64,000 nucleotides of DNA, from positions 40,600,141 to 40,664,140 of the forward strand of contig CM055095.1 of the NCBI GenBank assembly GCA_029204225.1. The letters run 5' to 3'. The notes under the pieces are model-generated. The model worked only from the letters and a program-made list of their open reading frames with translations. It was not told where the DNA came from and ran no database searches. This DNA comes from Diphasiastrum complanatum (taxonomy: Eukaryota; Streptophyta; Lycopodiopsida; Lycopodiales; Lycopodiaceae). Shown piece by piece: positions 4,278 to 62,655 of the stretch (positions are counted from its first letter, which is position 1; the number at the start of each line of letters is the position of its first letter). The position numbers and the translations under genes are program-made.

Positions 4278-4569
4278 CTACCAAACTCAAGTGGAGTCAT
4301 AGGCATCATCATGCAAGAATTTCGAACCATCGAACCGTGGTCCGATGCACAACTATGATACTATAATCTATCTAGACTATCAAACAACACTTGGTTTGCC
4401 TTTAACAAAAGGTTAGGAATAAACCAAGCCAAAAAAAAAAAAAACCTTAAAAATGTTTCGCCGTTCTTTCTATTAGGAATTAATGGTTAATTAATTGATT
4501 GTAGAGGCCAGCCTACGTGCTAGAAGACCTCTATTTTTAGTATAGCTACTATCTATTTTTAGTGTAGGT

Positions 4570-5165: not shown

Positions 5166-5232
5166 AATTAATTGTTTGTTGCATGCAATCATATTCCTAG
5201 TAGAAATCCTATCATTTTTTTGTACGACAAAG

Positions 5233-6060: not shown

Positions 6061-6533
6061 GAAGACGAAGACAAAAGTGAAGCTGTGGGATGCTATGAGT
6101 TATTCTCAGCTTCAACATTAGAGAACTCTAATGATTGTTGGTACATTGATTCTGGAGCAACGCAACATATGACACCACATCGTGAGTGGTTTACACAGTT
6201 TGATGACACTGGTATAAATGCACATGTCAAGCTTGGAGACAATTCTTCTTACAACATCAAAGGTCGAGGTACAGTGAGAGTACATTTACCTTCAGGGAGT
6301 ATAGGAGAAATTAAGAATGTTCTCAATGTTCCAGGTTTAAAGAAGAGTTTACTTTCAGTTTCTGCTATTGCTAAACATCATATGAAAGTTGAGTTTGATG
6401 ATCAAAAGTGTCTTATCAAAGACAAAAGTAAAGGTTACAAAGTTGTGGTCAAAGGATCTTTGGAAGGTCGACTTTACAAACTTGATGCGTCTACATTGGA
6501 TCATCAGGTTTGTGCAGCTTCTGATAGCATGGA
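6061..6533 (+). pseudogene. Copia C protease domain
   Basis: An open segment with the aspartic protease motif WYIDSGATQHMT (about 6139-6174), followed by the LPSG...IKNVLNVPGLKKSLLSV and CLIKD blocks. The frame is ended by insertion of the TRIM at 6534. The same polyprotein resumes at 6939, in the GAG-pre-integrase region. Confidence 0.88.
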
Positions 6534-6678
6534 TGTTAGAAATCCATAAATCATAATATGGATGGACAGACTAGGATTCGAACCCAGGACCTCCCTCATA
6601 CCGGATGGGATGCTCTAACCACTGAGCTATCCGCCCTGTTTGATAGTTCTCTCTAGAGTGTGGATTGATATTCCAACA
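6534..6678 (-). repeat. TRIM 3' LTR
   Basis: 145-bp terminal repeat. It differs from the other copy by one 1-nt indel and one substitution that I can see, both within the tRNA-like D-arm, so the insertion is fairly recent. Confidence 0.95.
6564..6636 (-). other. tRNA-like sequence in TRIM 3' LTR
   Basis: On the minus strand: acceptor GGGCGGA pairs with TCTGTCC (7 bp, two G-U), D-stem GCTC/GAGC, A box TAGCTCAGTGG (6619-6629), an anticodon arm with one mismatch and a possible CGG triplet in the loop, T-stem CTGGG/CCTAG with loop TTCGAAT, and B box GGTTCGAATCC (6574-6584), a perfect consensus. No TTTT terminator follows inside the LTR. It may be a Pol III promoter or a tRNA relic rather than a functional tRNA. 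Confidence 0.8.
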
Positions 6679-6687
6679 CCCCCCCTC
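6679..6687 (-). other. TRIM polypurine tract
   Basis: Minus-strand GAGGGGGGG lies immediately before the TGTTGG start of the 3' LTR, as expected for priming of plus-strand DNA. Confidence 0.85.
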
Positions 6688-6781
6688 AAGCCACACTTTG
6701 TTGGGGTCCTAGCTGTCACCTGCCCCACAACTTGGGCCACCTAACCATGGCTTTGACACCATGAACTGTTAGGTCTAACTT

Positions 6782-6794: not shown

Positions 6795-6938
6795 TGTTAG
6801 AAATCCATAAATCATAATATGGATGGACAGACTAGGATTCGAACCCAGGACCTCCCTCATACCGGATGGGATGCTCTACCACTGAGCCATCCGCCCTGTT
6901 TGATAGTTCTCTCTAGAGTGTGGATTGATATTCCAACA
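6795..6938 (-). repeat. TRIM 5' LTR
   Basis: 144-bp terminal repeat with the same TGTT...AACA ends. It contains the second tRNA-like copy. Confidence 0.95.
6825..6896 (-). other. tRNA-like sequence in TRIM 5' LTR
   Basis: Second copy of the cloverleaf-like sequence. Here the D-arm reads TGGCTCAGTGGTAGAGC, closer to a canonical A box and one base shorter than the other copy. Acceptor, T-arm and B box are the same. If transcribed by Pol III from this LTR, the transcript would start inside the LTR and run towards the internal region. Confidence 0.8.
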
Positions 6939-23537: not shown

Positions 23538-26500
23538 TGTTAGCCGATATTTTCGCACAAAAAATCGGGCTAATATTGAAGTTTAAGTTTGCAATAATTG
23601 AAAAAACCGGCATGTAAAACCCGGTTATTAGCGATTAATCGGCACAAATTTGCCTTAGAGTTGGGTCCTAGCCCGCCCAAAATGAGGCTAGAGCAAATTT
23701 TGCGGCCTTATAAATGGCCGATAAATATTTTATGGCTTTTCAAAAAAATGGCCAGTTGTAAAAAAATAGCCGGTATGACCATGCTAAATCTCACCATGTA
23801 CTAACTCCATTTTTATTAGCATATGATCACTCAGTGTATTTTCAGGGAAACCGTGTTGTCGTGGGAGCCCTAATCATGAATGCCGAAAAATTCAACCACA
23901 GAAGAAAAAACCGAGAAAGAAAAGTTTCGGGTAAAAACAGGTATGGATTCAGTGTCAAGGAGTCACAGAAACCCTAACGGCAAAGTTTGGGCAATTTACG
24001 GACAGTTAACGAAATGTGTGGGCCAAGTGCTTAACCAACAGGCACAAAACCCAGACAAATGAGTAGTAGGCGCACGACTTTTGAAAAAAACAAAGAAAGG
24101 CCAAAAACGAAGGTACCTAAAGAAAAATGAGGGCCGCCTACAAAAAATAGGGGTTGAAAAAGGACCTCACCCAAAATTTGGATATTAAATGCCAAAACAC
24201 CTTGGAGGCTATAAAAATTGGGAGGTACACCCACTAGCCATTGACATTTTGGGATTCTAGGGTGTACAAAAGGGGAAACTTGAATGGCCTCCCTAGCCTT
24301 TGACAAAAATGGCATCTTGGCTAGTTTTGGAAGAGGGCCTTGAATGCACCATTCCCCCACTCTCTTATGGAGGCCACTAGATGTACTATCAAATGGGTTG
24401 AGGACAAATGGCTTGAAGGACATGAAGAATGGCAAGATGGCACTGTGAAGGGGATGCATTGGATTTTCCTATAAGGAGCCAACTCCTTGTATTTCAAATG
24501 TTAGTGCTTTTGGAAGTTAGTGCTTTTGTGAGTTAGTGCCTTTGTGAGTTGATAATTTGACCGTTGGATGGTGGAAAGTTTTTGAGAGTTAGAGAAAGTT
24601 TTTGAGAGTTAGATGTTCAATGCTTGCTTGTCTTGCGTTGGTGGTTTTCTGGTTACTTTCCTTATGATGTTATGAATGCTAGCATGCAATTATGGTTGTT
24701 GTGTATGATAAGAGTTGAGAGGCCAATGTAGTTTGATGTTGAGTGTTACAATAGAGTGAGGTTATGTTGATAGTTGGATATTGAGAGAGTTCCATGTTGA
24801 GAGTGAGTTGGAAGTCATTTAAGTTGGAAAGCATTTGGGGTGAGTCATTTGGAGTTGATGATTTTTGAGATTGAGAGTCATGTAGCTTTGTTGGTTACGT
24901 TCCATGTTGTTGTGAATGAGAGTTCCTAAATGCTTACTTGCTTGAGAATGCTTGAATGTTAGTGGGTTGAGTGTTAGTTCTCCTTTGTTGTTTTTAGTTC
25001 CATGTTAGTTGTTTAACATGTGGAATGTTTGTTTATTGGTGGAGATTGAGTAAATCATGGTAGATTGATGGTTGGAAGTGGGTTGTAGAGTAAGAGAATG
25101 AGAAAGCTGCTAGGATGAGCAGAAGGAAATCAAGTAAGTGATGTGTGGAGAGGCATTGGTGAGACTCCTATAGAGTTGTTGATGGATCCAAAAAAGAGGA
25201 ATGAAAGAGTTTTTGCAAAGGGGAAGGACCAACAAGATCAACATGCAGGTGCAGAGAGGTAGTCTGTTGGCCACATTAGTCTCATTTTGAATAGACGGTT
25301 GTAGGTCCTGCTGTGGATCTGCCCTGTGTCTACGACCTCCCACAGGCCTTCGTTGCGTCACTGGCTACCAATGCCTGTGTACTAGTTCTGGTTGCCTATA
25401 GTTCCTCCTACTATCGATTCACACCTGCCTACTGGATCTACGGCCATCTACGGACCTGCTGCGGCCTGTTCCAGGCCTCTGCGACCCACCCATCATTTTT
25501 TTGAGACTGTCTACACATGTAATCATTGTCAACAGGCGCATATCAGTTGTTTGTGGCCTATCAGATCTGCCTGCGAGCTGTCTTAGACAATTGGTGGCAT
25601 GTACCACCTGTCTGCACTTTGATTTTTGACTTTTGCAGCTGTCTACGACCACCACAACCTACGCACTGTCTGCCTGGGCAGCCTGTGACCTATTGGCTTG
25701 AGTATCTGCGATCTACTGTGAGGAAAATATGCGGCCTGGGAATCATCAAAAAATCAGAGATTTGAAAATTCTGACCGTTGCCCACATCTGAAACCTACTG
25801 GCCCTGCGATCTGCCTGCTGCCTCTGCCTTCAATATACTCGTTGGAGGTCTTTTTGCCTGCCTGCGGCCAGTGGCTACCTGCCACGTGACCTAAAACACC
25901 TGTAGTGCCAGCCCATCTTTGATAAATACCTCGCTGCATGTCTGCGGCCCACTAGCAGTCAAAATTCGGAAGAAAAATGACCTACAGCCTACCATGTCGT
26001 CGTCTTGCCTCACTGGACCTGCCTGAGATCCTTGCCTTGGTAGGGAGCAACAAATCACAAAGTTTTGATTCCACTGGAATGCGACAAACGAGGAAGACAA
26101 TATGGAACTCAAACCAGAAGCGCTACGGACAAATGGTTTTCGGAAAGCGAGGAACGAGAAAGAAATTGTAATTGAAGATTTAAAAGCGGCATTCATGACT
26201 AGTGCCTCTACGATTTTCAGCTTCTCTCTCACACTGAGGTATGGGTTTACCTCACATCGATTTTTATTCTCGTGTTTACTTGCTTTCAATTGGAATGTGG
26301 GTGTTTGATGTCTGTACTTGCTTTCGCTCATTGAATGAATGATAGGATACTGAGAATTCATTGTGTAACTGTATGAGGACCTAATCACTTCAATATTTCC
26401 GCATTTGCCATGTCCCTATCAGGACCTAAATGATTGTGATCCTTTTCTTGAACAAGTAGACATTGAAGTACCAGGTCTATGCGTATTTGTGGGTTTACCG

Positions 26501-27445
26501 GTAGTATGAACTCAGAATCACTTGCTTGCAATGGGAATGTTGTTTGCTTGAGTTCAGTAATTGCAATTATCTAACTAGTGAATGGATTGTCGTAGAGTAT
26601 GGTCGATTGTGCATTATAGTGAATCGTTTTTAGCACAAATTCGAATTCAGTCCGGAATCGTAATATTTTATAAACAAGTGCGACATGGCTACTTAGAACA
26701 ATGAGTGCCTATTTCCAACTCGTTTAGTGAAAGTGTTAAGTAAATAACTTTGTTTCGCACTGATTTAGAATGTGTTGTATGGAGAGAACCGTAGGCTGGG
26801 CAGTTAACATCTTGCTGAGTTAGATTTATTTAACGGCTATATGGAATCGTCAAGTTTTTAAAGTGTTTCTTACGATTTTTCCATTATGAAGCGTATTAAT
26901 TGGACCCGACCTCTGTGAAACACCAGAGCGGGCCGTCCATCATCCGCGGTTGAAATAAACCGCCTTGGTTAAGCGTAACACTAGTCACACCCGCCGTCGG
27001 TACTGTCTAGAAATACCTAGATCCGATGGTCGGCAAAAATACCGTCACTTAGCAAACAAAGCGCTGCGTATAACTTGCACCCCACGAGCATATCATAGAC
27101 AGTAAATCGGTTTCCAGTCCATGTAAGATTTTTACTAACTGTAAGGCAAATTCAATGGGGAAAGAGACATTAGCAAGATCCTAACGCAGTGATCAGAAGT
27201 TTTACGGAACCATAACCCTAGAAAGCTAGTGAATCATTGCACCAAAAGTGACAGTACCCCCTCCTTGCAACCGTATATCTAAGAACCCGGTTGGGGAGCA
27301 CGGGGCAATAGAGAAGGCCATCAGGGTTGGAAGTGGCAAATCCTCTATTGCTCACGTAGGGCCGAACCACCATTAGAGGTGGGGCCCCTTGACCCTTTTA
27401 GGACGTTTTGGCTGGACCAACTCCCCATCAAAATTGGACCTAACA
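23538..27445 (+). repeat. 5' LTR of H (3.9 kb)
   Basis: 3,908 bp, colinear over its whole length with 33091-37014. Contains a conserved TATA box and a CTGC/CCTG-rich tract (about 25300-26050). A minus-strand ORF occurs in both copies but does not look like a protein family. Very long for a plant LTR. Confidence 0.95.
24210..24217 (+). promoter_or_regulatory. Candidate TATA box in H LTR
   Basis: TATAAAAA preceded by CTTGGAGGC is conserved in the other LTR at 33755 (TATAAAAC). If used, it places the U3/R border near 24240 and leaves an R-U5 of about 3.2 kb. Confidence 0.45.
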
Positions 27446-27455
27446 TTGGATTAGC

Positions 27456-27656
27456 CATTTGCGGGTTGCTTATGTTGTTTGACACGCCAGATGCTTAACA
27501 TTGGTGCATCTGCCGGGAGCTAGAACCTTATAATGGGCTATTGTTTGAAGGGCGATTATCTCTACATAGGGTTGTGAACTATATGGATTTGTCATTTGCG
27601 GGTTGCTTATGTTGTTTGACCCGCCAGACGCTTAACATTGGTGCGTCTGCCGGGAG
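27456..27656 (+). repeat. Duplicated block carrying two PBS-like sites
   Basis: CATTTGCGGGTTGCTTATG and the following 45 bp occur twice, 137 bp apart (27456-27519 and 27593-27656). Each copy ends in TTAACA followed by TTGGTGC(A/G)TCTGCCGGGAG, which has the form of an LTR end plus a tRNA-complementary PBS, most like a diverged tRNA-Asp type. The real LTR end as defined by the 3' LTR is at 27445, so neither site is adjacent to it. Confidence 0.65.
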
Positions 27657-28200
27657 TGACTTGATAAGAGAATATTGCTTGGAGAGTAGTCATGCTAGCA
27701 ATGATCTACATGTATGTGTTGAGAACGATTCTACTGTTTAGACTGTCAACCGCACACTACCACCTCAGTGCGAGCTACTTTAGTAGTGTCGAATGTTGTT
27801 TTGAAAGACAATTATTAGGTCAAAGTGGTTAGCATCGCACAGAGATGTGTGCTGATCCTGCAAAGAGAGTGACAAGGGTTGTGGATCAACCTGCCAAAAG
27901 ATTATTCATAGGATGAAATCTGAGGTTGTCTGGATTTGAGATATCATATGCATTCTTATTGGATCTAATGAGGGCCTCGTACCTCAACATGATAAAACTT
28001 TTGGTTGGATTGTGGAAGCTCTTGCGATAGCCATTGCTAGAAAAGAGTGTGGTCCAATGGTTAGGATAGTGTCATCCAAGCAATAGAGCTGGATTCCCTC
28101 GATAGGAGAGCATAAACCATCGTTACAAAGATGTTAGTTATGAGACCAATCTAGCGTGATTGTGTCATTCTTGGCCTTCAACCGACCCAACATTGCTATC

Positions 28201-29922
28201 ATGGGGGGCTTTCACTCATTAGTTGGGTGGTTTCTCTCTTGGATGTGGGAGTTACTGGTGGACCCACCCAATGAAGAAGTACACTTTGTTGATCTAGGGT
28301 CATCCCAAACTAGAGACAACAAAGGATTCTGTACTGGTTGGTATTGGGCCACAAGCGATGATGAAATGCCCCCTCTAGACCAAGAACATCTCTATGAGCT
28401 AAATAGACCGACGAATATATCTGAGATGATGACAGAAGAAGAACTAGTTAAAACCATAGACACATTTCTAGGGACCTTTGATTTAAATGAGGCTAAAAGA
28501 GAAGATCTTACGTTAATAACACTAGATACGATAGATCTTGAAGAAAAACATGTTATACTAGAAGACCACTTGATCGAACCACAATGCACGGAGGAATCCC
28601 AACTGAATCTAGATGGATTTTCATATGCAGAGCTAGATTTGGCTATTGAAATTTCATCGCATGAGACTAGTCTACTGCCTAGAGAACCAAGTCCAACCAT
28701 AGATGGTGGAAGGAGGGCGGCCAGAGACCCACCTCTCTTCCCCTCAAAAGTTGTAGAGACTCGAGAACAATTACCACAAGACCTCACAAGGCCAATTCTT
28801 CTTGAGGATCGAGACGATATTACAACCGATCTGGAAATAGCAATAGCACTCTCATTGCAAGAGTGGGAAGCCTCATACACAGATGACATCCGACAAGAAG
28901 CAGAGATAGGAGAATTCCCAACACAAAATGAAAGTGAGGACGAGATTCTTAAACCAGTGAAGAGCTATAGTGATGAATCTGAGTGGGAGACTATATCTGA
29001 GGATGAAGAGCCAGAGCCCAATGAGGTGGCAGGTGATAAAGCAGTAAGTGAGGAAGAGACGGTAGGTGATGACATAGAGTCAGAATCGAAAAAAATGAAT
29101 GAAAGCGAGGTTGAGTCAAATCTGGATCTCGATCAAGCAGATCATAATGATCATAACATAAACGAAGAAGTCTTAGCTGAAGTTGACGATCGAGCTCAAG
29201 CACCAACTATGCAAACACCTGACTCTATACCTATTACACCGGTGACAAGGAGAGTCACTCAGCCAATAGTTGTGCCTGATGACACCGAGAGGGTACCTAG
29301 TATAGTAGGCTCTCTACCACAATTCCATGGAAACAATGATGAAGATGCCCACGAGCATCTCGAAGATTTTGAGACACTAATGGTTGTTAATGCAATTATG
29401 AATCCAGCGCATAGGATGATGTTATTTTCCACAACTCTGGTAGGAGAAGCTAGGCGCCGATACTATAATTTGCTCAAAGCTTCCATTACAGCCTGGGAAA
29501 AATGGTTTGAACTATTTTTATTAGAGTTTGGACTCAAATACAATATCGATAGCTTGATATTAGCTCTGACCACGATACAACAAGAACCAAACGAATCAGT
29601 ACGCCTATATGTTAAACGACTCAAGGAGCTCGTTCGCCAATTGAACATAGGGCTAGCGACAGAAGTATCATCTCAATTAGTACTCACCTTTTTCTTGAGG
29701 GGCCTACAACCAGCTATCCAGCTAGAAGTATGCCAATTTGGGGCTACATCATTTGAAGAAGCAATGTCTAGAGCCAGAACCACAAAAGAGGCCTTTCTTG
29801 CTACAAATGAATGCCAAACCATTTTAGCCATAATGAAAACTGTGAACCCTATGGTACCATTGAAAGAGAACACCAAACCAGTAGAACGTGATAAATCACC
29901 ACTTGATAGTCCCATTTTGTAG
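28201..29922 (+). CDS. gag: Gag-like protein of H
   Basis: Open from the ATG at 28201 to TAG at 29922, 573 codons, without internal stops. The N-terminal half is acidic and looks disordered. The C-terminal part (about 29300-29800) matches the Retrotrans_gag pattern: LPQFHGNNDEDAHEHLEDFE, then ARRRYYNLL, a W-rich helix (WEKWFELFLLEFG), the ESVRLYVKRLKELVRQL helix, and FLRGLQPAIQLEV. This is the capsid region of Ty3/gypsy elements. Two ubiquitin-interacting-motif-like helices occur at 28633-28665 and 28831-28863. A shortened Cys/His knuckle lies just past the stop, in another frame. An intact gag in an element lacking pol suggests selection on Gag or recent origin. Confidence 0.85.
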   Translation: MGGFHSLVGWFLSWMWELLVDPPNEEVHFVDLGSSQTRDNKGFCTGWYWATSDDEMPPLDQEHLYELNRPTNISEMMTEEELVKTIDTFLGTFDLNEAKREDLTLITLDTIDLEEKHVILEDHLIEPQCTEESQLNLDGFSYAELDLAIEISSHETSLLPREPSPTIDGGRRAARDPPLFPSKVVETREQLPQDLTRPILLEDRDDITTDLEIAIALSLQEWEASYTDDIRQEAEIGEFPTQNESEDEILKPVKSYSDESEWETISEDEEPEPNEVAGDKAVSEEETVGDDIESESKKMNESEVESNLDLDQADHNDHNINEEVLAEVDDRAQAPTMQTPDSIPITPVTRRVTQPIVVPDDTERVPSIVGSLPQFHGNNDEDAHEHLEDFETLMVVNAIMNPAHRMMLFSTTLVGEARRRYYNLLKASITAWEKWFELFLLEFGLKYNIDSLILALTTIQQEPNESVRLYVKRLKELVRQLNIGLATEVSSQLVLTFFLRGLQPAIQLEVCQFGATSFEEAMSRARTTKEAFLATNECQTILAIMKTVNPMVPLKENTKPVERDKSPLDSPIL

Positions 29923-30356
29923 GAGGTGTTGCACTTACACATTCCAAGACCTTTTGCTATTGTAGGGAGTGTGGCCATTCAGAGGATGGATGTTGGTCAC
30001 AAGAGAATGGTTTGAATACTAGAAATCAAAGGCAAGAACCGATAGGCCATGATGTCATGGATGACGAACTACTTAGAACCTACCAAACTTGGAATCAATC
30101 GCAGATAGATTATAGAGTGACCTCTCAGGGTGAGGTGACTAGAACGGAAGGAGAGAAGCCCCCGATAAACTTGTCAAAAACACTCATAGAAAAGAAACGG
30201 CTGAGGGTAACCCAAGATAGGGTACAGATAGACATCTCTAATGAAGAGTGTGAGGGAGCAAGTAAGCAGCTGGTAGACTCCAAAGACATTGAACCTAGAG
30301 ACGGATCACCCTCAATAGCTACTGTTGGAATAGAAGAACTATACCCTTGATTGGAA
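29923..30356 (+). pseudogene. H nucleocapsid remnant and following ORF
   Basis: In frame 0, immediately after the gag stop, the sequence reads FCYCRECGHSEDGCW, a knuckle-like cluster with shortened spacing (CX2CX1HX4C). The frame then stays open to 30350 as a hydrophilic protein rich in charged residues. It is best explained as a gag tail separated by a frameshift. No protease motif is present. Confidence 0.5.
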
Positions 30357-31338
30357 GCCGTATAGATGAAGAAACAACTCCCTCAGAAGTTAGTATGAGG
30401 CCATTCCCCTTGGAATTGAGACAAACCAAAGGGATTATACTTCGAAGAAAACCAGTCAAAACTCGATTATTCCTTAGGGCTATACAAGCTAGGATTCGAG
30501 AATGCAATCTTGTGAAGAAAGTAGTTTTGGGTGAGAAGCCTGGATCTACAAGCATACAAAGACATGGACATCAGATACAGTGGGTTGGGTTAGATCTACA
30601 GTGTTATGGGCTAGTCACTCACGAAATTTTAAATAGAAAGACTGAAGATTCACAGATCGAAAAGCTTAAACGACCTCCTCAGAATAGACAAGACAAGACC
30701 AATGACAAGAGACCCCCGCACGACTCAATAAGAACACTCATCCCCGAGGGGACTAGGGCGAGAGTACTGACGCTAACCTAGAGTAGGTTACAGACAGACC
30801 CACCTAGCAAAGAGTGGATGGAAGAGTGTGATCGGCAGGTGAGACTTGGAAGTCCACTAAGTCTAAGGAGCTTATATCATTCACATCTGTTGTTAATAAA
30901 CAAGCCACCGATGACCAAGCTGTACCTCCTGACGAGGACAGTGAAGGCGACTTAGACTAAGCAAAAGTACAGGACATAGTATGGATAGCCCCTGTAGATT
31001 ACTCCCCTAAATCTAGATCCATAGGCAGCTGTGTAGTGAAGCAAGAAAATGACAAGAATCATGAACTCCCACCTGATTCATTTGATCCGGAATCATTTGA
31101 TATCCAACGCTTATTCGAATATAAAAAAGCAACAATAGATGGCCACATGGTGGTAAACTTTGATAATTTTATCCAGGATAGTACTGGAACACCATATGAT
31201 CCATTCCTTTGGGACAAAGACCTACCCAACTACATCAGCAATGAAGAATCCGATCATGAAGAAAACATGGTGCTAAGATATTTCCTTGAACCAAATGATG
31301 ACCTAGAACTTTGGTCCACCTATCATATACATGAATGA
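30347..31338 (+). pseudogene. Further open segments of H, function unknown
   Basis: Two open segments, 30347-30781 and 31036-31338, in different frames and separated by stops. Both are hydrophilic. The second is acidic (ESFDIQRLFEYKKATIDGH, then NYISNEESDHEENM). They may be one decayed ORF downstream of gag. No family recognised; they are not RT, integrase or RNase H. Confidence 0.35.
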
Positions 31339-33090
31339 CCGAATATGCAAAACACTGAAGTGCAAGTTAGGGTTAAAGCGCATGATGAATATCCAGACAA
31401 CAAGGTGGATGTTGGATAGATGTGGTAAGGTGACAACAATACACCCTTATTCCTGATTTCACATGGGGGAGTTGAGGGGTGGTAAGTTTGACTTTACTTT
31501 GTCGATCTAGTTTTGTTATATTTTTTTTAATTTTTTGGTCAACATTGTATCTTGTTTTAAAATACCACTAAAAAATAAATAAATTTGTTTCAGTATGGGA
31601 TTCGTTATTACTACATGTGAGATTCATAGACACTATAAACGGTGATCTACAGATATCTCAGTTGACTTGACTCCATTCACTCACGCTGCATTGCATCATG
31701 TAGGCATAATGTGCTTGGTCATTTGATTGCAAGACCGTTGTCTCATGAATCCATACCCCTGCATTCTGCATATACTCTGAGCTGCATAGGGCATTACATA
31801 TTTTCTCCTATGGGCATGAGTGTTTGATCAGAAGCATAAAAGGGAGGGTAAGAGAGGAAAAAGTGGGAACAGAAACAATGCAGTGGGGTGGGGAGTGACT
31901 CCATCGCCCAAGATAAGGCATGATTGACTGGACAGTTGGAGAATTTCAGGACGTGACGGATAAAAAAAAAATCGAGAGTCTCCACATGATGGTTACATAC
32001 AGTGAGATAACAAGCTTGAAGCATCACTACTTCTTTGAGTAGTGAACCATTTGAGACAGTTGCTGAAGGAAATTTATGCTTTGTACATAAAGTCGGATCA
32101 GATGGAAGAGATGATCTGCAACGAATGTCTACATTTGAATCAGTTTGTCCACCTACTGATATCAGACAACTGAGAAGATTCTTCTTCATCTCCACTGACC
32201 GGAAACCATCTTTCATAAGGTCCCTACTAAAACAGAAAAAGAGAGAGAAAGAAAGACTGAAAGAAAAGTAAAAGAAAAAAGAGAAAAAAGAAAAAGACTC
32301 CAACCATCAGATCTCGAACCAATTTGTGAGGACGAGTGACGCCTTGCACATCCATAAGAGGTGAGGAAGATTTTCCTAATTGATTCCATAGACTAGTGGG
32401 AAACCAGTGTTTTCTACTATCTGGTGTATTGGATCTTAGGACAGTAAGTTGTCCTACATGGACCACTGTCACAATATAGGGCTTGAGAGAAGATTCAGTA
32501 CATAGAGGATAGATGGTTATTCCCCATTGAATTGGTTCTTAGAGACTATAAGTTGAATGTCTAAACAAGAGAAAAAAAGAAAAGGAAAAGAGTTGGTAAT
32601 CACCAGTTTGGACCGGTTTCAGAGTTGGGGCACTAAAGCCTCATCGTGCATACATTCACACACACATCAATGACACGATATTAGACACAATACTGTTGAC
32701 TTGCATCCATTTCATCATATCTCCAATCCTGAGATTTGCATTTGCATATCCCTCTATGCATGGGTCCGAAAGTGGGCATTGCCTTACATCTGATGGAACT
32801 GGGAGCATTTGCCGCTTAGGTCACAGGTGGGTTTTTGCAGGTATGAAGACACCAAATTGTTCAAAGATGCTGTGGTTAAATTCAATCCGGTTGCAGATGG
32901 ATCCTAAGGGCTAAATCGATGGCCTTTGGGTAGGAAGCTGTTGAAGACATCCTACCAACTCATGTGGTTAGCATCATCTAGTAAGGGTGCTGAGCCCACT
33001 AAAATTGATCCACCACCAGGAGTTGGTCTGCGAAACCAGAAACTCTGGGTCCGCCGTATGGGGACCATACTACCCAGTGGTAGTCACCAA
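31339..33090. other. Noncoding 3' internal region of H
   Basis: No ORF. A purine-rich CACATGGGGGAGTTGAGGGGTGG at about 31460-31485 resembles a gypsy PPT, but it lies 1.6 kb from the 3' LTR. The sequence directly before the LTR at 33091 is not purine-rich. Lysine-codon-like A/G-rich sequence occurs at 32230-32300. Confidence 0.5.
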
Positions 33091-36000
33091 TGTTAGCCGA
33101 TATTTCCACACGAAAAATCGGACTAATATTGATGTTTAACTTTGCAATAATTGAAAAAATCGGCATGTAAAACCCGGTTATTAGAGAAAAATCAGCACAA
33201 ATTTGCCTTAGAGTTGGGTCCTAGCCCCTCCTAAATGAGGCTAGAGCAAATTTTGCGCCCTTAGAAATGGCCGGTAAATATTTTACGGCTTTTCAAAAAA
33301 ATGGCCAGTTGTAAAAAAATAGCCGGTATGACCGTGCTAAATCTCACCATGTACTAAGTCAATTTTTACTAATATATGATCACTCAATGTATTTTTCAGG
33401 GAAACCGTGTTGTCGTGGGAGCCCTAGTCATGAATGCCGAAAAGTCAATCACAGAAGAAAAAATCGAGAAAGAAAAGTTTCGGGTAAAAACGGGATTGGG
33501 AAATATGGATTCAGTGTCAAGGAGTCACAGAAACTCTAACGGCAAAGTTTGGGCAATTTACGGTCAGTTAACGAAATGTGTGGGCCAAGTGCTTACCCAA
33601 CAGGCCAAAAACCCAGACAAATGAGTAGTAGGCGCACGACCCTTAAAAAAAATGAAAGTACGTAAAGAAAAATGAGGGCCACCTACAAAAAATAGGGGTT
33701 GAAAAAGGGCCTCACCCAAAATTTGGATATTAAATGCCAAAACACCTTGGAGGCTATAAAACTTGGGAGGTACACCCACTAGCCATTGACATTTTGGGCT
33801 TCTAGGGTGTACAAAAGGGGAAACTTGAATGGCCTCCCTAGCCTTTGACAAAAATGGCATCTTGGCTAGTTTTGGAAGAGGGCCTTGAATGCACCACTCC
33901 CCCACTCTCTTATGGAGGCAACTAGATGTACTATCAAATGGGTTGAGGACAAATGGCAAAGAGGGCTTGAAGGATATGAAGAATGGCAAGATGGCATTGT
34001 GAAGGGGATGCATTGGATTTTTCCATAAGAAGGAGCCAACTCCTTGTATTTCAAATGTTAGTGCTTTTGGAAGTTAGTGCTTTTGTGAGTTAGTGCTTTT
34101 GTGAGTTGATAATTTGATAGTTGGATGGTGGAAAGTTTTTGAGAGTTAAAGAAAGTTTTTGAGAGTTAGATGTTCAATGCTTGCTTGTCTTGCGTTGGTG
34201 GTTTTCTGGTTAGTTTCCTTATGATGTTATGAATGCTAGCATGCAATTATGGTTGTTGTGTATGATAAGAGTTGAGAGGCCAATGTAGTTTGATGTTGAG
34301 TGTTACAATAGAGTGAGGTTATGTTGATAGTTAGATATTGAGAGAGTTCCATGTTGAGAGTGAGTTGGAAGTCATTTAAGTTGGAAAGCATTTGGGGTGA
34401 GTCATTTGGAGTTGATGATTTTTGAGATTGAGAGTCATGTAGCTTTGTTGGTTACGTTCCATGTTGTTGTGAATGAGAGTTCCTAAATGCTTACTTGCTT
34501 GAGAATGCTTGAATGTTAGTGGGTTGAGTGTTAGTTCTCCTTTGTTGTTTTTAGTTCCATGTTAGTTGTTTAACATGTGGAATGTTTGTTTATTGGTGGA
34601 TATTGAGTAAATCATGGTAGATTGATGGTTGGAAGTGGGTTATAGAGTAAGAGAATGAGAAAGCTGCTAGGATGAGCAAAAGGAAAGCAAGTAAGTGATG
34701 TGTGGAGAGGCATTGGTGAGACTCCTACAGAGTTGCCGATGGATCCAAAGAAGAGGAATGAAAGAGTGTTTGCAAAGGGGAAGGCAACATGCAGGTACAG
34801 AGAGGTAGTCTGTCGGCCACATTAGTCTCATTTCGAATAGACAGTTGCAGGTCCTGCTGTGGATCTGCCCTCTGTCTACGACCTCCCACAGGCCCTCGTT
34901 GCCTCACTAGCTACCAACACTTGTCTACTAGTTCTGGTTGCCTACAGTTCCTCCTACTATCGATTCACACCTGCCTACTGGATCTGCGACCATCTACAGA
35001 CCTACCGCAGCCTGTTCTAGGCCTCTGCGACCTACCCATCATTTTTTTGAGACTGTCTACACATGTAGTCATTGTCAACAGGCGCATATCAGTTGTTTGT
35101 GGCCTATCAGATCTACTTGTGAGCTGTCTCAGACAATTGGTGGCATGTACCACCTGTCTGCAGTTTGATTTTTGACTTTTGCAGCTATCTACGACCACCA
35201 CAACCTGTGCACTGTCTGCCTGGGAAGCCTGTGACCTGTTGGCTTGAGTATCTGTGATCTACTGTGAGGAAAACCTGTGGCCTAGGAATCATCAAAAAAT
35301 CAGAGATTTGAAAATTCTGACCGCTGCCCACATCTGAAACCTACTAGCCCTGCGATCTGCCTGCTGCCTCTGCCTTCAGTATACTCGTTGGAGGTCTTTT
35401 TGCCTACCTGCGGTCAGTACCTACTTGCCACGTGACCTAAAGCACCTATAGTGCCAGCCCATCTCTGATAAATATCTTGCTTCCTGTCTGCGGCCCACTA
35501 GCAGTCAAAAATCGAAAGAAAAATGACCTACAGCCTACCATGTGGCCGTCTTGCCTCACTGGACCTGCCTGAGATCCTTGCCTTGGTAGGGAGCAACACA
35601 ACACAAAGTTTTGATTCCATTGGAAAGCGACAAACGAGGAAGACAATCCGGAACTCAAACTAGAAGCGCTACGGACAAACGGTTTTCGGAAAGCAAGTGA
35701 GGAATGAGAAAGAAATTGTGATTGAAGTTGTAAAAGCGGCATTCATGACTAGTGCCTCTACAATTTTCTGCTTCTCTCTCACTCCGAGGTATGGATTTAC
35801 CTCACATCGATTCTTATTCTCGTGTTTACTTGCTTTCAATTGGAATGTGGGTGTTTGACGTCCGTACTTGCTTTCGCTCATTGAATGAATGATAGAATAC
35901 TGAGGATTCATTGTGTAACTGTATGAGGACCTAATCATTTCAATAATTCCGCATTTGCCATGTCCCTATCGGGACCTAAATGATTGTGATCCTTTTCTTG

Positions 36001-37014
36001 AACAAGTAGACATTGAAGTATCAGGTCTATGCGTATTTGTGGGTTTACCGATAGTATGAACTTAGAATCACTTGCTTGCAATGGGAATGTTGTTTGCTTG
36101 AGTTCAGTAATTGCAACTACCTAACTAGTGAATGGATTGTCGTAGAGTATGGGTCGATTGTGCATTATAGTGAATTGTTTGTAGCACAAATTCGAATTCA
36201 GTCCGGAATCGTGATATTTTATAAACAAATGCGGCATGGCTACTTAGACCAATGAGTGCCTATTTCCAACTCGTTTGTGAAAGTGTTAAGTAGATAGCTT
36301 TGTTTCGTACTGATTTAGAATGTGTTGTACGGAGAGAACCGTAGGCTGGGTAGTTAACATCTTGTTGAGTTAGATTTATTAAACGGCTATATGGAATCGT
36401 CAAGTTTTTGAAGTGTTTCTTATGGTTTTTCCATTATGAAGCATATTAATTGGACCCAACCTCTGTGAAACACCAAAGCTGGCCGTCCGCCATCCGCAGT
36501 TGAAATACACCGCCTTGGTTAAGCGTCACACTAGTCACACCCGTCGCCGGTACTATCTAGCGAAATACCTAGACCCGACGGTCAGCAAAAATACCGCCTT
36601 AGCAAACAAAGCGGTGCGTATAACTTGCACCCCACAAGCACATCATAGACAGTAAATCGGTTTCTAGTCCATGTAAGATTTTTACTAACTGTAAGCCAAA
36701 TTCAATGGGAAAAGAGACATTAGCAAGATCCTAACGCAAATTAGTGATCAGAAGTTTTACGGAACCATAACCCTAGAAAGCTACTGAATCATTGCACCAA
36801 AAGTGACAGTACCCCCTCCTTGCAACCGTGTCTCAGAGAACCTGGAAAACTCTCATCGGTTGGGGAGCACGGGGCAATAGAGAAGGCCATCAGAGTTGGA
36901 AGTGGCAAATCCTCTATTGCTCACGTAGGGCCGAACCGCCATTAGAGGTGGGCCCCCTTGACCCTTTTAGGACGTTTTGGCTGGACCAACCCCCCGTCAA
37001 AATTGGACCTAACA
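33091..37014 (+). repeat. 3' LTR of H (3.9 kb)
   Basis: 3,924 bp, starting TGTTAGCCGATATTT and ending GGACCTAACA, followed by the ACTAC duplication at 37015-37019. Confidence 0.95.
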
Positions 37015-51840: not shown

Positions 51841-54800
51841 TCAACATAGGTATTGTTCAAGCATTACCATAGAAAGTACAGTTGGCTCCCCAGGCTCCAA
51901 GATCATTTTTAAATTGTCTAGCTTTTCCTCAAATCCATGTAACTGTTGTAGCTGCCGCTCCACGTCATGAAGCAACCGCGTTTCACCATTTTCTGATCTC
52001 AAGGATTCCATTATGTGCTTCATGCTTTGCCTGTCATCCTCAAGAACCTGCAACCTCGAAGTTAGTTGGTTTACCTCCTCTTGAACAGCCATTCTTTGAT
52101 AATCTCTCCTGACCATGGAAGCAGTTCGAAGATCGTAGTCAGAAGTTCCTAGAATGTATTCATCAGCTGAACCAAGAGAGTCTAGATCTAAAGTATCATC
52201 ACTTGTCTGTTCATCAAATCCAGCTAATCTGTCACTTTGTTCAAGAAAACTTTTATCCTGCCCTCTTTCCCTGTTTGTTCCATACTGCCATCCGTTTTCT
52301 AGCTCTTGGAAGACCTCACTTTGTGGGTTTTGATCTGATACTTTTATTGGAGTATCATGAAAAGTATATCGTTCCTTGGGATAATGAAGCAACGGCGGAG
52401 AGTTTTCAAAAAACTTTGTATCGTTACTTTCTCTCTCACTTGTTTGCTTGTCATCTAAGGCCAATGATAACTTACAGGAACTGATTGTAGTATTGTGAGC
52501 TGAATCTGAGTTGTGTCTTTCAAAAAGCTGCGACTCCGGAAAATCTTTTTGAAATTCCTCTGAAAAATTCAAATCAGAAGGTAGTTCATAAAGCTCGTTA
52601 TCAATCTCATACCTAACAAATGACAACGGTGTCGCCCTGACATCTACAACTTGCTGGCATTTCATCATCTCAGTACTTCCTTCACTCGACTTACCAATCA
52701 TATTCATGGAATCAACCTGAATTGATAAGCTGTCATCTAGGAGTTCACTGGTATAACTATTGCAAGGTTCCAACTGAAATTCATCTTCATTGTGAAAGAT
52801 GCTTCTGCCGTTTGACGGATGCTCTTCACCTTCTTTTTGAGAATAAGTACCACGCATTGTGTAATCGTCCTCCAGAGTCGAGGCCTTCCAGCCATTTTCA
52901 ACGTTGTTCACAATTGAAGAATTTCGTGACAATGTTTCTGTTGTATCCATACAAAGATTTTGCCAATTTCCTGCTGCAATTTGCCCCAAATGCTGCATTT
53001 CTGTGGAAAGTGCAGGCTCCCATGGATCAAAAACATTATGTTCTACCTTGGCTGCTGCTGCTTTAGATCTACCGTCATTATCCACCGCACAGGATTGCTC
53101 ACCTGATAAAGCCGCTACATGTGCAATATCCGGTGATACTGTAAGCTTCTGTTCACAAATATCATTGTCAAGTGCCAATGAAGCCTCTTGAAGAATTACC
53201 TCAGAGTACACAATCTCATCTTTGCTTTCCTGTGTGGCACGAATTAACAAGGAATCTCCTCCCCTATATTTAGTTCCCACAGACTCAGTTGCAACCAGCA
53301 AATTTTTTCCACTACCAGAAGGCAGCAGCTCATCATGTCTTTTCTTGAACTGCGATCCTATCTCCTTTGTAGATTCCCATGTCTTTGAATCTTTCAAGCG
53401 CTTCGACTTGCTTCCTCTTTCAATCAAACTACTAGTTCCAGTAAGGTCAAAATCAAAACCGGCAGAAGATCTGTCGTCCTTAAAAGGTACTTGCAGTTCT
53501 TGACTTTCCTTGACAATCTCCTTGTCCTTCCTTCCCTCAAGTAGCAGAACGGGTTTTCTATTCCATTCTGCTAATTTCAGTTTTTCCTTGTCACAGTGTT
53601 TCTCAAACTCTTCTCTCTTCAATCTCTGTCGTCGCCACTTTCCGATTCTGTTATCCAAGAGCCGGGACCTATAAAGCTCGACCTCATTTTCCAGAGCAAA
53701 CTTTTCTTCTTCTCGCTTACAAAGAATTTCTTTCAGCAAAGCAATAGCTTCTTGATCAAAGACTGCTTTCTCTTCCACCATCCTTTTGAATTGTCGAGCT
53801 TCCATCTGTATAGCTGCTTTCTCCTCTTGAAGTCGAGAGATCATGGCCATAGTCTCATTGGCAGCTATTGCAGAAGCATTCCTCTCCTCTTCAAGTTCCG
53901 TGTATATGGCACTGTAAGCTTCTCTCTCTGCTTCAAGAGCATCCTTCAGTTCTTTTATTACATCCACCTCATCTTGCTGCGCATCAATCTGGGGTTCCAC
54001 ATCCACCAAGGGAAGAGCCGCCACCTCTGTGTGATCCTCTTCTGCAATTGCCTCAGGTTCCACATCTTCTTCACTTATATAGTGAAGTAACTCGCCACCC
54101 ATCACCTCTCCTTCAGAAAGGTGGTAACTCTGCGGCTGCACTTCGCTGTCATAACCCGTTTTATCAATGCACTGATAATCGTCTAAGGTTGCATTGTTAT
54201 CCAGCATAGGGTCATCTCTTGACCTACTGGTTTCCTTATACTTGTCCTCCTCTTTGGGATGATTTTTGAAAGAACCTGATCCTAAAGCCTCACTCTCCTC
54301 TGTCACACAAAAAGGGACAGGTACTGTCTCGGGCAACACCGCATTGTATGATGGTTCGCAAAATTGCTCTTCAAAATCCTCTACAAAAACCTTTGCAAAT
54401 TTCTCTTTAACAAACTCATTTCTGGGTACCTTTTCTGTGATTAGCTGTTTACAACACGAACACTGCGAATGCACATATGTCATAAGCTGTCGTCCAGATC
54501 TGTCTTTGGTGGAACAATCAGAGCTTCCAGAATCGCTTCCCACTTCACCCTGCAAGCCTTTTTCGCCTCGGCCTTCGCCCACACTTTCTTCAATGCAAGC
54601 AGAAGGCAAACAACATCTCTGCTTTTTGAACAAACATATCTGGCAGCTATTTACATGTACAGAATCGTCTGATGAGAAACACTTATTTGGGTTGCTATTG
54701 ACAGCAGTAATCGTCTCAGTTGAAGAGCAATTTAAAAGCATGCAATCTTCGCAGAGACTATGTACAGGGGCAATTCCTCTGTTCAAGATCAATTTTTGCA

Positions 54801-55074
54801 AAAGAGAAAGCTTATTTGAATGGTAATTGCAAAGCAATCTTTCAGAATTTTCTTGCTTTCTGGGGGGGTTTGAACTTTCTTTACCAGAATATAGCTTGGT
54901 ACAAAAGCAAGGTGGCCGGAGGCGAAAGAGCCTGATAATGGTTGATGCAGTTATAGAAATACAAACACTAAGAAGAAATAGAAAAGCAAGCACCACTTCC
55001 AAAAGGGCAGAAAACACCGAAGACATCCTCAATGGGTCATTACTTGAGCCAAGTAACACTGATTTCAAAGCCAT
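51841..55074 (-). CDS. Myosin-XI-binding protein, GTD-binding (DUF593) family
   Basis: Plant-specific membrane-anchored myosin receptor. Family members bind the globular tail of myosin XI and mark transport vesicles or endomembranes. Start chosen at ATG 55074, since the frame above it has no ATG; 1,077 codons to the stop. Residues about 18-48 form one hydrophobic anchor (VFSALLEVVLAFLFLLSV). Cys-rich clusters follow (CEDCMLLNC, CQICLFKKQRCC, CSCCKQL). The acidic middle leads to the GTD-binding coiled coil at residues about 371-470 (ELKDALEAEREAYSAIYTEL to ENEVELYRSRL). A long variable region and a C-terminal coiled coil (EEVNQLTSRLQVLEDDRQSM) complete it. After codon ATG at 51868-51870 a GTAAT donor-like site suggests that the last five or so codons before the in-frame stop may be intronic. 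The large single exon is open and looks functional. Larger than many family members. Confidence 0.92.
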   Translation of the reverse strand: MALKSVLLGSSNDPLRMSSVFSALLEVVLAFLFLLSVCISITASTIIRLFRLRPPCFCTKLYSGKESSNPPRKQENSERLLCNYHSNKLSLLQKLILNRGIAPVHSLCEDCMLLNCSSTETITAVNSNPNKCFSSDDSVHVNSCQICLFKKQRCCLPSACIEESVGEGRGEKGLQGEVGSDSGSSDCSTKDRSGRQLMTYVHSQCSCCKQLITEKVPRNEFVKEKFAKVFVEDFEEQFCEPSYNAVLPETVPVPFCVTEESEALGSGSFKNHPKEEDKYKETSRSRDDPMLDNNATLDDYQCIDKTGYDSEVQPQSYHLSEGEVMGGELLHYISEEDVEPEAIAEEDHTEVAALPLVDVEPQIDAQQDEVDVIKELKDALEAEREAYSAIYTELEEERNASAIAANETMAMISRLQEEKAAIQMEARQFKRMVEEKAVFDQEAIALLKEILCKREEEKFALENEVELYRSRLLDNRIGKWRRQRLKREEFEKHCDKEKLKLAEWNRKPVLLLEGRKDKEIVKESQELQVPFKDDRSSAGFDFDLTGTSSLIERGSKSKRLKDSKTWESTKEIGSQFKKRHDELLPSGSGKNLLVATESVGTKYRGGDSLLIRATQESKDEIVYSEVILQEASLALDNDICEQKLTVSPDIAHVAALSGEQSCAVDNDGRSKAAAAKVEHNVFDPWEPALSTEMQHLGQIAAGNWQNLCMDTTETLSRNSSIVNNVENGWKASTLEDDYTMRGTYSQKEGEEHPSNGRSIFHNEDEFQLEPCNSYTSELLDDSLSIQVDSMNMIGKSSEGSTEMMKCQQVVDVRATPLSFVRYEIDNELYELPSDLNFSEEFQKDFPESQLFERHNSDSAHNTTISSCKLSLALDDKQTSERESNDTKFFENSPPLLHYPKERYTFHDTPIKVSDQNPQSEVFQELENGWQYGTNRERGQDKSFLEQSDRLAGFDEQTSDDTLDLDSLGSADEYILGTSDYDLRTASMVRRDYQRMAVQEEVNQLTSRLQVLEDDRQSMKHIMESLRSENGETRLLHDVERQLQQLHGFEEKLDNLKMILEPGEPTVLSMVMLEQYLC

Positions 55075-57120
55075 TGCGAATCTTATTAGATCAATCAGAA
55101 AACTAGGGAAGGTCCGGTATGAGACCACCAGATGATAGTAAGACCACTTGGATCTTAACCACGCGGTGAGAATTGCCACTCAGAAAATTTTCAATGGTAG
55201 ACAATGCCAACGTTGCAAGATCGGGAAAGTCCAACGGTTTCTGGTGAAGGGCGGAGGAATGCTTCAGCTTGATCTACACAGTAAGTGTTTGGATCGGACT
55301 CGTTCTTGCAGAGTAGAATAGTATATACTAGCTCTCATTCGACTCGTTCTTGAAGGGTAAAGATCGCTCTACCTCTCATTCGACTCGTTCTTGGAAGGTA
55401 GACAATTGTCTACTTCTCATTCGAAGGTATAATACTCGTCAAAATCGATCTGGGATCTCCAACCAAACAAGCAATATGGTTATCTTTGATCGTAGATGCT
55501 TCTTAGTAAGGGTCAAGGAAGGGTAGAATGTTTTCACACATATCGATCCTGCTACAGAGAGAAATTGGAAGAATTAACACAATTCAAACCCTCAGCCAAT
55601 CATCCAAGGGCCAGCTGATGTGATCTTTGTATTTTGAATGCTTGTTATTCATCGCATGCCTACCCGCTGAGAAAGGAAACGAAAAATGGAACGCCGCTGA
55701 TAATTATGATGAGATTGTTTCACAAACTGGAACAAAAATGGCTTGAGAACAGATAATGAAGCAGAATTTCCATCAATTGAGAAAGAAATACCGTATATTA
55801 GCTGTTTTTCATCCGAAAATAAGCGTAAAAGCTCAGCAAAAAATATTTCATCCTGCAAGGCGGAACGAGACCCGCCGGGGGCTGCAGCCGCAAGGCTCAA
55901 TGAACAACCACTGGAGTGCATCAAAGCGGCCAACGTGACATGAAACCCCGACGGATGCAGAACAATTTAGCAAATGATGGCACAGGCATCGCCAAGATGA
56001 TCCAATCAACGAAGGCCGGGGAAGAACTCAAAGAATCTTGCGGATTGGCAGAGCGCTCTGCATACAACCCTCGAAGGCAGGCACACAGATAGACAGACGC
56101 AGATGAATATGGCACACAAGGATGTCTATACAATAATGGCGGAGATAACAAAAGTCGATTACAGCTCGGACTAGTCAGAAATGTAAAGCAAAGGAAGGAA
56201 CGGAAAAAAGGGGAAAAGGACCTCCGGGAAGAGGACGAATCAATCCACGGCAGGTCGATGGGTCCACTGGCAGCAGGTACGTCAGTGGCAGCGGCAGCAG
56301 GAGGAGGAGCAGCGCTGGAGAGCAAAAAAGACAGTGGAAAACACGGCTGCTTGGAAAAAGCAGGTAAATAGCAGGCATGGATCGAAAGGCGGAACAGGAC
56401 ATCACATTGAAAATTCCTTTGCCCTTCAAACGCCTCCCTGCCTTTCAATGACGGGCCAAAAGTTCCACCTAACTGTCCCCTTAACGTCAATTTTAAAACT
56501 GGCGCTCCATGTGGACTCCATTGAAGGGGTTGATCGTCATCTGAAAGCCAATGAAAGTCGTGAAACTTCATTTGAAAGGGTAAGGTAAATTTTCTGATGG
56601 ACACGTTCTTGAAGGTTTGCGCATGCCATCTGAACGTCACAGCTTGAACAAGGTGTGTACTTGAGAGGTTATTAGAAGACAACACCCGTCATCCTGAAAG
56701 GCTGTATGCCTTTCAAATCGCAAGCCTGAACCCGTAAACACGATTTTTAGTCCCTTCAAACTTCACTTGGATGTCACCCACGAGTTAAAGTACAGCTTAC
56801 GGAAAATCGACGATTTCGGCTACAACACGTGGCACAATCTGAACGGGCTTTTGAATATCTAACGTCGCGGGGTGAAACCGTGGCGGTGGTAGTAAGAGGC
56901 GTGTAGGGCATGTAAAAGAGAAAAGCAGAAGGAATTTCGTCGAATCTTCTTCCAGCTGAGGATGTGCATCCTGTCGGCAGCCGCAGACAGTCGGTCGATT
57001 AGTAGGTATTAACGTATTAACCCCAAGAATCAGGCCAGCTGAAAATTTTCTGAAAAGAAATTTAAAACACAAAAAAATTGGGGCCAAGTTTAGAGGGCAT
57101 ATTTTTGTTTGCATAGGGCT
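55075..57120 (-). promoter_or_regulatory. Upstream region of the myosin-binder gene
   Basis: The stretch 55850-57000 is visibly richer in G+C than its surroundings, as expected for a 5' UTR or promoter, possibly with a 5' UTR intron. Open frames here (for example 55921-56685 minus) have no recognisable domain. No TATA box can be assigned with confidence. Confidence 0.4.
55297..55427. repeat. Three-unit tandem repeat upstream of myosin-binder ORF
   Basis: Units of 44, 41 and about 45 bp start at 55297, 55341 and 55382, each beginning GACTCGTTCTTG and ending CTCATTC. It lies 220-350 bp upstream of the start codon, so probably in the 5' UTR or its intron. Confidence 0.8.
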
Positions 57121-61663: not shown

Positions 61664-62655
61664 GTGGCTAGGACGAAACACACTGCTCGTCGACTTACTA
61701 CTCCTCTTGGAGTCACCCATAATCTTGTTGCATCTGCTCCTCGTGCCAGGGGGATCCACAGAGAGGAAGCATAGACCGTGGCTAAGAGATATCAACATAT
61801 TGCAAAATTCTACCAACCTTTTGTACCCAGAGCTCACTTTAGTAGGATTGTAAGGGACGTGGCCATTTCTTTGTCTAGGGATGTGAGATGGGTTGTCACT
61901 ACAATTGAGGTGTTACATACAGCTTCTAAGGACTATCAAGTGAGATTTTTTGAAGACATTGTGCTTGCTGCTATCCATGCAAAACGGGTGACTATCATGC
62001 CCATAGATAGGGAGCTTGTACTTAGATTGAGAAATTAGTATGAGTAGGTGTTCAACCTAGCTTTGGCTCCCCGACCTGCTCCTAGAGTTAGAGGTCCAAT
62101 ACAAAAGAGAAGGAAGCAGGTTAGGCTAGTCAAGTCAGGAACCAAGGCCAGCCAACAGAAGATGAAGTTGGGCCATCTAGGCCACAAGAAAAAACATCCC
62201 CCTCTCCTCCTCCTCCTCCTAAAAAGAGAATAAGACTCTCAAATGTTCTTGATGGCTAGGCCCAATTAATACTTGATACACTACAAGTTCAAGGAGACAT
62301 TCTTGTCACCCTTGCACTTAGTATGTTTCAAGGCTCCTCTTTAGAGAGTGAGAAATCTTTGGATGTCCATGTTAATAGTACAGAGGATATAGTTGTTAAA
62401 AATCCGATTGATTCCAAGTAGACATTTTTTAATTCTAAACAATATATAGCCTTTGATGAATATATAGCTAAGAAAATTGATAGATTAGGTGATCATTTTG
62501 TATTTAATATATATTCGGCCTCATATATGAATTATTTCAATCCCAATTTTTGTAATAAACTTAAGAATAAATCCTCAAATCTTATAGATCTAGCTAGTTG
62601 TGGAAGGTGGACTCAATTATTGGATTATGAAAATCAACCAATCAATACTTCTTAA
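61664..62655 (+). pseudogene. Histone-H3-like domain fused to an unknown C-terminal region
   Basis: Begins GTG (ATG position) then ARTKHTARRLTT, the H3 N-terminus with the ARTKH variant seen in CENH3. After a TAG at 61772 the frame continues through TVAKRYQH, HFSRIVRDVA, SRDVRW, YQVRFFEDIVLAAIHAKRVT and IMPIDRELVLRLRN, which aligns with the H3 fold from alpha-N to the C-terminal helix. In place of a normal H3 end the frame runs on past TAGs at 62036 and 62045 into a basic tract (PIQKRRKQVRLVKSG). One frameshift near 62140 leads to SPSPPPPPKKRIRLSNVL and then about 130 codons of unknown type to TAA at 62653. Stops inside are all TAG (also 62257, 62419). Intronless. The tail shows no known domain. 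Could be a decayed CENH3-like retrocopy, or an ORF carried by a mobile element. Confidence 0.7.

Follow-up and report, generated by a model that had tools for sequence, protein, structure and literature searches.

The window analysed here (64,000 nucleotides of Diphasiastrum complanatum DNA) contains, on the plus strand at 61664-62640, a coding remnant in which an H3-like histone fold is followed by a long tail, with stop codons and frame breaks interrupting both. The N-terminal tail of the H3-like protein (ARTKHTARR..., 61664-61771) opens with GTG, compared with ATG in the relatives. A tblastn search with the protein of a related copy, L042, identifies the alpha-N helix of the H3 fold in a separate frame at 61758-61832 (RPWLRDINILQNSTNLL, RPWLRDI; 68% over 25 residues). 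The fold itself lies at 61775-62035 (Pfam Histone, residues 18-86 of the frame), directly followed by a TAG codon at 62036, and another TAG, at 62045, precedes a basic linker in the H3 frame (62048-62122). Downstream are a Pro/Lys-rich linker with the motif PPPPPKKRIR in a second frame (62125-62256, ending at TAG 62257) and a conserved linker (AQLILDTLQVQ..., 62260-62418, ending at TAG 62419), both of them, like the basic linker, recognized with the L042 protein; the last part, at 62422-62652 (DEYIAKKIDRLGDHFVFNIYSASYMNYFN), is a remnant of the lead-in to a C48 (Ulp1-like) domain. Homology stops at about 62640, upstream of the exons for the protease His and Cys, which are absent.

A preliminary description of this stretch had noted the ARTKHTARR start, the H3 fold and the motif IHAKRVTIMP, all of which are indeed found here, and had read fold and tail as one continuing frame, which they are not: aligning the L042 protein by tblastn assigns 61664-62167 (N-terminal tail, first linker and the bulk of the fold) to one frame, 61758-61832 (alpha-N helix) to another and 62092-62640 (tail) to a third. 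The in-frame TAG codons of this copy are at 62036, 62045, 62257 and 62419; the relatives carry Gln at the first three, that is, at three of five TAGs when 61772 is included, and the TAG at 61772 is a frame artefact because the alpha-N helix sits in another frame. The suspected similarity to H3 is significant, with a Pfam Histone match to the frame 61775-62035 at 54.6 bits (E = 1.6e-14), whereas CENP-T_C remains below the Pfam cut-off for the same frame. A PDB sequence search started with the fold retrieves H3 chains (best E = 4.7e-14); 59 of the 60 listed entries are named H3, and the remaining one is a histone domain-containing protein. The downstream part aligns with residues 155-366 of the L042 protein (44% identity, E = 3e-36) and recurs at all 20 loci fetched from the genome; a chance reading frame, considered for the tail, is ruled out by this homology across many copies. 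A second, 100% identical occurrence of the stretch is present on contig C3945, which is probably a duplicate contig. Four protein queries for the other genes of the element described below yield no match within the window at E values up to 0.01. Stops, frame breaks and the GTG start mark this copy as decayed, as had been supposed, and intact copies are found elsewhere in the genome. The copy in the window is a degraded part of a gene that belongs to a DNA element with four genes and many copies.

One intact gene is that of locus L043, which consists of four exons (4985-5967, 6075-6261, 6373-6477 and 6577-6714) separated by GT-AG introns and encodes 470 amino acids without a stop. The spliced protein matches Pfam Histone at residues 27-123 (E = 1e-27, above the Pfam cut-off) and Peptidase_C48 (PF02902) at residues 316-442 (E = 1.1e-10; 42.2 bits against a cut-off of 20.7); the C-terminal part alone matches Peptidase_C48 with E = 3.1e-11. 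A PDB search with this C-terminal part identifies the Ulp1-like SUMO protease 6dg4 (E = 0.001), yeast Ulp1 (1euv, 0.0015) and SENP2 (1tgz, 0.01), and SPQQNDSFNCGWY of L043 aligns to the Gln/Cys stretch of Ulp1-type chains. The catalytic residues of C48 (Ulp1) peptidases are His, Asp, Gln and Cys. In families A and C, the His (NDHW) and the Gln and Cys (SPQQNDSFNCGWY) are present, and Asn occupies the Asp position. Three of the five family C genes L043-L047 are intact, with four exons and GT-AG introns (L043, L044 and L047), one is frame-shifted and in one exons 2-4 do not align; all five were chosen for an open exon 1, so that this proportion gives no estimate of the share of intact copies. 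Type A copies show the same exon set as L043, and the coding sequence of L042, which is of type A, is interrupted by a TAG where exon 2 ends and by further stops within exon 4. Hence the intact copies encode an H3-like histone fold fused to a Ulp1/C48-type protease domain, and the C-terminal region, previously considered new, contains a member of a known protease family according to the Pfam and PDB matches. H3-like genes and Ulp1 genes on transposons are each known; what appears novel is their fusion in one gene, which was not found in the literature searched, a set thin in subscription papers and preprints.

The gene belongs to a large repeat family in the host assembly (1.74 Gb, 5176 contigs searched). 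A DNA search with the window stretch yields at least 72 matches (best 40 of 1073 first-look candidates scored, the window and the identical contig included). At all 20 fetched loci of 9.9 kb, picked by DNA similarity to the window stretch and hence a non-random sample, the H3 and tail matches occur together, albeit only as short matches in L016, so that the C-terminal part regularly accompanies the H3 part in this set. Protein queries yield at least 118 matches for the H3 and tail of L020 (best 96 of 9829 candidates scored) and at least 189 for L043 (best 90 of 14623); first-look counts are not copy numbers, and some of the matches are near-identical duplicates on small contigs. In a search of the genome with the Histone profile (best 150 of 6325 first-look candidates scored), the canonical H3 loci stand out as 13 entries at about 164 bits, and the others are weaker. 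The suggestion that a histone-fold protein with an added C-terminal module is borne by a mobile element is borne out by intact multi-copy genes in which the tail goes with the H3 part.

In type A, the repeat has defined ends that form inverted repeats: the left end reads CATTAGGGG...GGGCCC, and the right end, as reverse complement, opens with ACATTAGGGG...GGGCCC. Matches to the right end (best 40 of 659 first-look candidates scored) all terminate at query base 294-296, and the main scored matches to the left end start at base 1 in 36 of 40 cases, at base 17 in three and at base 106 in one (250 first-look candidates). Besides the H3-C48 gene, the element has three genes without a significant Pfam match, in the order transposase-like (+), gene without Pfam match (-), H3-C48 (+), gene without Pfam match (-). 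This order is complete in five of the 20 type A loci (L013, L014, L015, L022 and L027) and in L043; the remaining 15 are truncated or rearranged, with the transposase part inverted in L021 and L026 and the last gene on the H3 strand in L009, L018 and L028. A search with the transposase-like protein (best 86 of 21015 first-look candidates scored) places an H3 match on the same strand less than 8 kb downstream of at least 14 of the 86 loci, against a chance expectation of 0.17, and none of the 86 has an H3 match in another arrangement among the matches listed; the test drew on 90 matches from the L043 protein search and 134 from the Histone profile, which makes 14 a lower bound.

The transposase-like proteins of families A and C share the motifs LDESEI, GDLK (SDLK in L013), CxxC, LHAE and SQGMEK, and the gene, having DDE-like motifs, is taken as a putative transposase. 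Pfam scans at E values up to 10, including one with the C-terminal part (L043:2222-2497), detect no match, in particular no MULE transposase domain, hAT dimerisation domain or DUF659, in this protein, which may be incomplete at both ends, and a PDB search yields nothing significant; scanned against Pfam, the remaining genes of the element likewise lack significant matches. In L020, an H3-C48 gene is interrupted by a short element of 2.4 kb (2147-4564) that has a 1 kb fold-back, type-A-like ends and a MARTKQTA remnant; at this one nested insertion there is no target site duplication, and an empty-site search with the joined flanks of L013 retrieved none. The minus-strand gene (e.g., L043:7934-8209) has a relative in L029 (about 3650-3950, +); its WKGRI...VYMRRDI region looks BAH-like by eye, with nothing significant in Pfam.

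By eye and by tree, at least six H3 lineages are distinguished, namely A, B, C, D, E and F. Lineages A, C and D carry the C48-type tail or its first part, and E carries its start. Lineage B (L029:3165-6630; L031-L034, L036, L037 and L040) has a MARTKQTARDPR start (L029), a long Pro-rich stretch ahead of the fold and an H3 fold mostly ending in RRLRRERN, with no protease in the same frame; relatives of the minus-strand element genes adjoin the type B H3 in L029 and L032. In L029, a change of frame separates the ARTKQTAR start from the fold, which points either to a broken copy or to a start encoded by a separate exon. Another diverged H3-like lineage, F, is represented by L035:121-800 (MARTKQTAREPQ... 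LLLLRAPFMRIIKKMM...).

The tail begins with ARTKQTAR in representatives of A, B, D and F (in D with one change in each of two copies); the other starts are DRRKQTRR in family C, ARTESTAR in E and ARTKHTAR in the window. In 24 element tails, two of them from the same gene and all retrieved with a motif constrained only at residues 1-8, residue 9 (K in host H3) reads P, D, N, L, A or E; the window copy has R there. Among the eight alignment rows that have a tail, K4 is kept in seven, and K9, K14 and K27 are absent from all eight. When lineages A, B, D and F are each represented by a single copy, comparison of codons 2-9 gives 14 identical, 31 synonymous and 3 non-synonymous cases, and that of codons 10-15 gives 0, 3 and 33; inclusion of the host, E and C sequences changes these figures to 32/101/35 and 1/9/116. 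Because codons 2-9 differ mostly synonymously and codons 10-15 mostly non-synonymously, the tail is under selection at the protein level that ends at residue 8. In the core, R83, E105, D106, H113, K115, R116, T118, D123 and R129 are identical in all 10 element rows (35 positions printed), whereas these rows depart from H3 at positions 63, 66 and 110, among others; H113, R116, D123, R83 and others belong to the H3-H3' bundle and to the DNA contacts.

A tree of 16 rows and 90 columns places the C48-type element H3s on one side of a branch (92/90), with type B apart (100/99). The window copy groups with type A (98/97), its row being read in one frame with the alpha-N part out of frame. Three plant CENH3s (87/85) group with host H3 (85/84), outside the element rows. 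A CENH3 origin, which the ARTKH start had brought to mind, thus finds no support, for the C48-type element H3s form their own group in this tree, which is weak at 90 columns and lacks the host CENH3, not found in the genome search. Some element H3 sites look CENH3-like, namely LIP.A.F and RW in loop 1. A pseudogene of the host CENH3 was also considered; the grouping speaks against it, with the same weakness of the tree.

Substitution patterns differ between subfamilies and close copies. For exon 1 of family C, dN/dS is 0.32-0.38 when five copies are compared with the subfamily copy L048 (dS 0.22-0.24), 0.64-1.37 among the five closest copies (10 pairs), and 0.46 for a family D pair, all in copies selected for open frames. 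By region, pN/pS over 15 family C pairs is 0.90 in the N-tail, 0.37 in the H3 fold, 0.79 in the linker and 0.53 in the C48 half. The values of 0.64-1.37 among close copies imply that selection does not act on single insertions, and the pattern as a whole fits a model in which active lineages are constrained and inserted copies then drift almost neutrally. Among the 90 family C matches scored in the L043 protein search (best 90 of 14623 candidates), 18 have no stop in the match and 66 have at least one TAG; the stops amount to 101 TAG, 13 TGA and 19 TAA. All four fetched TAG copies (L053-L056, on contigs C23, C19, C7 and C6) share a TAG at codon 97, inside the H3 fold. Family C has an excess of TAG stops, for which decay of CAG to TAG was considered; for codon 97 this explanation is wrong, since the open copies have GAG there. 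Copies with this nonsense codon still multiplied, so that the protein is dispensable in individual copies or even altogether; the shared TAG suggests provision in trans or a truncated product. In nine family C copies, C>T and G>A changes account for 147 of the 228 departures from the majority sequence, at rates of 0.10 per CG, 0.076 per CHG and 0.018 per CHH site. This is the pattern expected for methylated plant DNA and suggests that the copies end up methylated.

Comparable components are known from other mobile elements. In VANDAL elements, according to the available part of PMC13317346, the anti-silencing gene VANC carries a Ulp1 domain (KIU, Kaonashi) whose function is said there not to be established. 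The present element resembles these in that a Ulp1-domain protein comes from a multi-gene plant DNA transposon, but in KIU/VANDAL the domain is part of VANC, as far as that part of the account goes, whereas in the lycopod element its fusion partner is an H3 histone fold; VANDAL elements are also Mutator-like, and Pfam scans detect no MULE transposase here. A hAT element of Pyrenophora tritici-repentis has a full-length H3L open reading frame between inverted repeats, with ESTs aligning to the element and 26 copies, 21 of them identical, with insertions in the H3 tail (PMC3538342, available part). It is similar in having an H3-like frame inside a DNA transposon and different in its hAT transposase, and the available part of that report mentions no protease fusion; the lycopod element has a transposase-like gene without a Pfam match, several deeply diverged lineages and conserved H3 residues 1-8. 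In Pseudocercospora fijiensis, a DNA transposon of the hAT type likewise captured and multiplied an H3 coding sequence, with 784 H3-like copies, 90% of them truncated and all but the original inactivated by RIP (PMC6710886, available part); no protease is mentioned in that part, whereas here intact fused genes show constraint between subfamilies. Histone domains, sometimes fused to other proteins, occur in NCLDV genomes too, but the fusions in the available part of PMC9145170 are with other histones or with regions lacking an assigned function, none with a Ulp1 protease.

That an H3-Ulp1/C48 gene is part of a multi-copy four-gene element with inverted-repeat ends (ends established for type A) is nearly certain. 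The interpretation that we favour, to which, taken together with this anatomy, we assign a probability of roughly 0.45, is that the H3-C48 protein is an element-encoded nuclear chromatin effector through which the element escapes silencing or eases its transposition. The histone part, which retains the nine core contact residues and, with tail residues 1-8, the H3K4 context but lacks lysine 9, would enter or dock on nucleosomes, above all at the element, and the fused protease would remove SUMO, or a modifier resembling it, from nearby factors of silencing or repair; the element might thereby escape H3K9me2/CHG-type silencing or ease its own transposition, in a working mode akin to that of the Ulp1-bearing VANDAL (KIU) elements. 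The anti-silencing role in itself is put at somewhat less than an even chance. This interpretation draws on the intact fused genes, the sharp inverted ends and the gene order, the dN/dS values between subfamilies, the conservation of residues 1-8 and of nine core residues, and the VANDAL precedent. Counting against an effector are the type B H3-like genes without a protease in the same frame, the Asn at the catalytic Asp position, the many nonsense copies, the dN/dS of 0.64-1.37 among the closest copies, the substitution pattern indicative of methylated copies and the H3 positions, such as 63, 66 and 110, at which the element rows differ.

The protein could instead be a transposition cofactor, its histone part tethering the transposition complex to nucleosomes for target choice or nuclear retention and its protease regulating SUMO marks on the transposase or on repair proteins. 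Linkage and order with the transposase-like gene, the joint presence of the histone and protease parts in intact genes and the multiplication of copies with a shared nonsense codon, as expected for a protein acting in trans, are all consistent with such a role; the retention of ARTKQTAR with loss of lysine 9 is more easily seen as a chromatin-mark feature than as a tether, and we regard a cofactor as unlikely. Capture of H3 by transposable elements without retained function is known (PMC6710886, available part), and the H3-C48 gene might similarly be a passive passenger, with host H3 and Ulp1 genes captured and amplified unused like the truncated H3 of the fungal hAT elements. The nonsense codon common to part of family C and the dN/dS of 0.64-1.37 among recent copies would be in line with this, but intact four-exon genes, dN/dS of 0.32-0.46 (family C copies against L048 and the family D pair) and the strong conservation of residues 1-8 and of nine core residues across distant lineages argue otherwise and make a passenger quite improbable.

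A multi-gene unit with genes on both strands, a histone and an adenain-like Cys protease also recalls large DNA viruses, which have histones, some of them fused to other proteins (PMC9145170, available part), and the element could be an endogenous viral relic rather than a transposon. Two single-query scans of viral contigs yielded no relative, Pfam scans of part of the element frames show no capsid or polymerase match, and a transposon is suggested by the short inverted termini, by the large number of copies and by a small derivative whose ends are of the same type, so that a viral origin seems very improbable. Ordinary host histone or CENH3 genes with pseudogenes, spread by tandem or segmental duplication, can practically be dismissed: histone families do expand, ARTKH resembles CENH3 and some listed loci are near-identical (e.g., on C20) and may be duplicated segments or contigs, but the copies are dispersed over chromosomes with common termini and common neighbours, the 13 canonical H3 loci score clearly apart, and the element ends and the fusion to C48 already contradict this explanation.

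Returning to the chromatin effector, a bolder version is proposed because the tail lacks lysine 9 and keeps residues 1-8 while the nucleosome core is retained: chromatin of the element might be unmarkable by H3K9 methylation. The element would then stand for a superfamily of DNA transposons in plants that has not been described before and has at its core a self-encoded H3 variant fused to a deSUMOylase, blocking H3K9 marking as a histone-based form of anti-silencing; we consider this tentative and rather against the odds. A transposon with its own altered H3 fused to a SUMO-type protease would be a natural experiment in evading silencing by altering the nucleosome itself, and the break at residue 9 after the conserved residues 1-8 allows one to test directly what stretch of the tail serves a parasite. 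On the practical side, automatic annotation of the D. complanatum genome may hold many false histone H3 genes.

The window contains several other features. At 23538-37014 lies an LTR retrotransposon with very long LTRs, seen as 3.9 kb direct repeats (93% identity) on either side of a gag-type frame (28144-29919). ARAGORN identifies two closely spaced tRNA-Thr(ggt) genes on the minus strand (6563-6636 and 6824-6896), the second of which lies within a frame that encodes Copia-type integrase domains. On the minus strand at 51847-55179, a 1111-residue open frame matches the Zein-binding family (PF04576, E = 7.3e-32) and is presumably a host gene of the myosin-receptor type.
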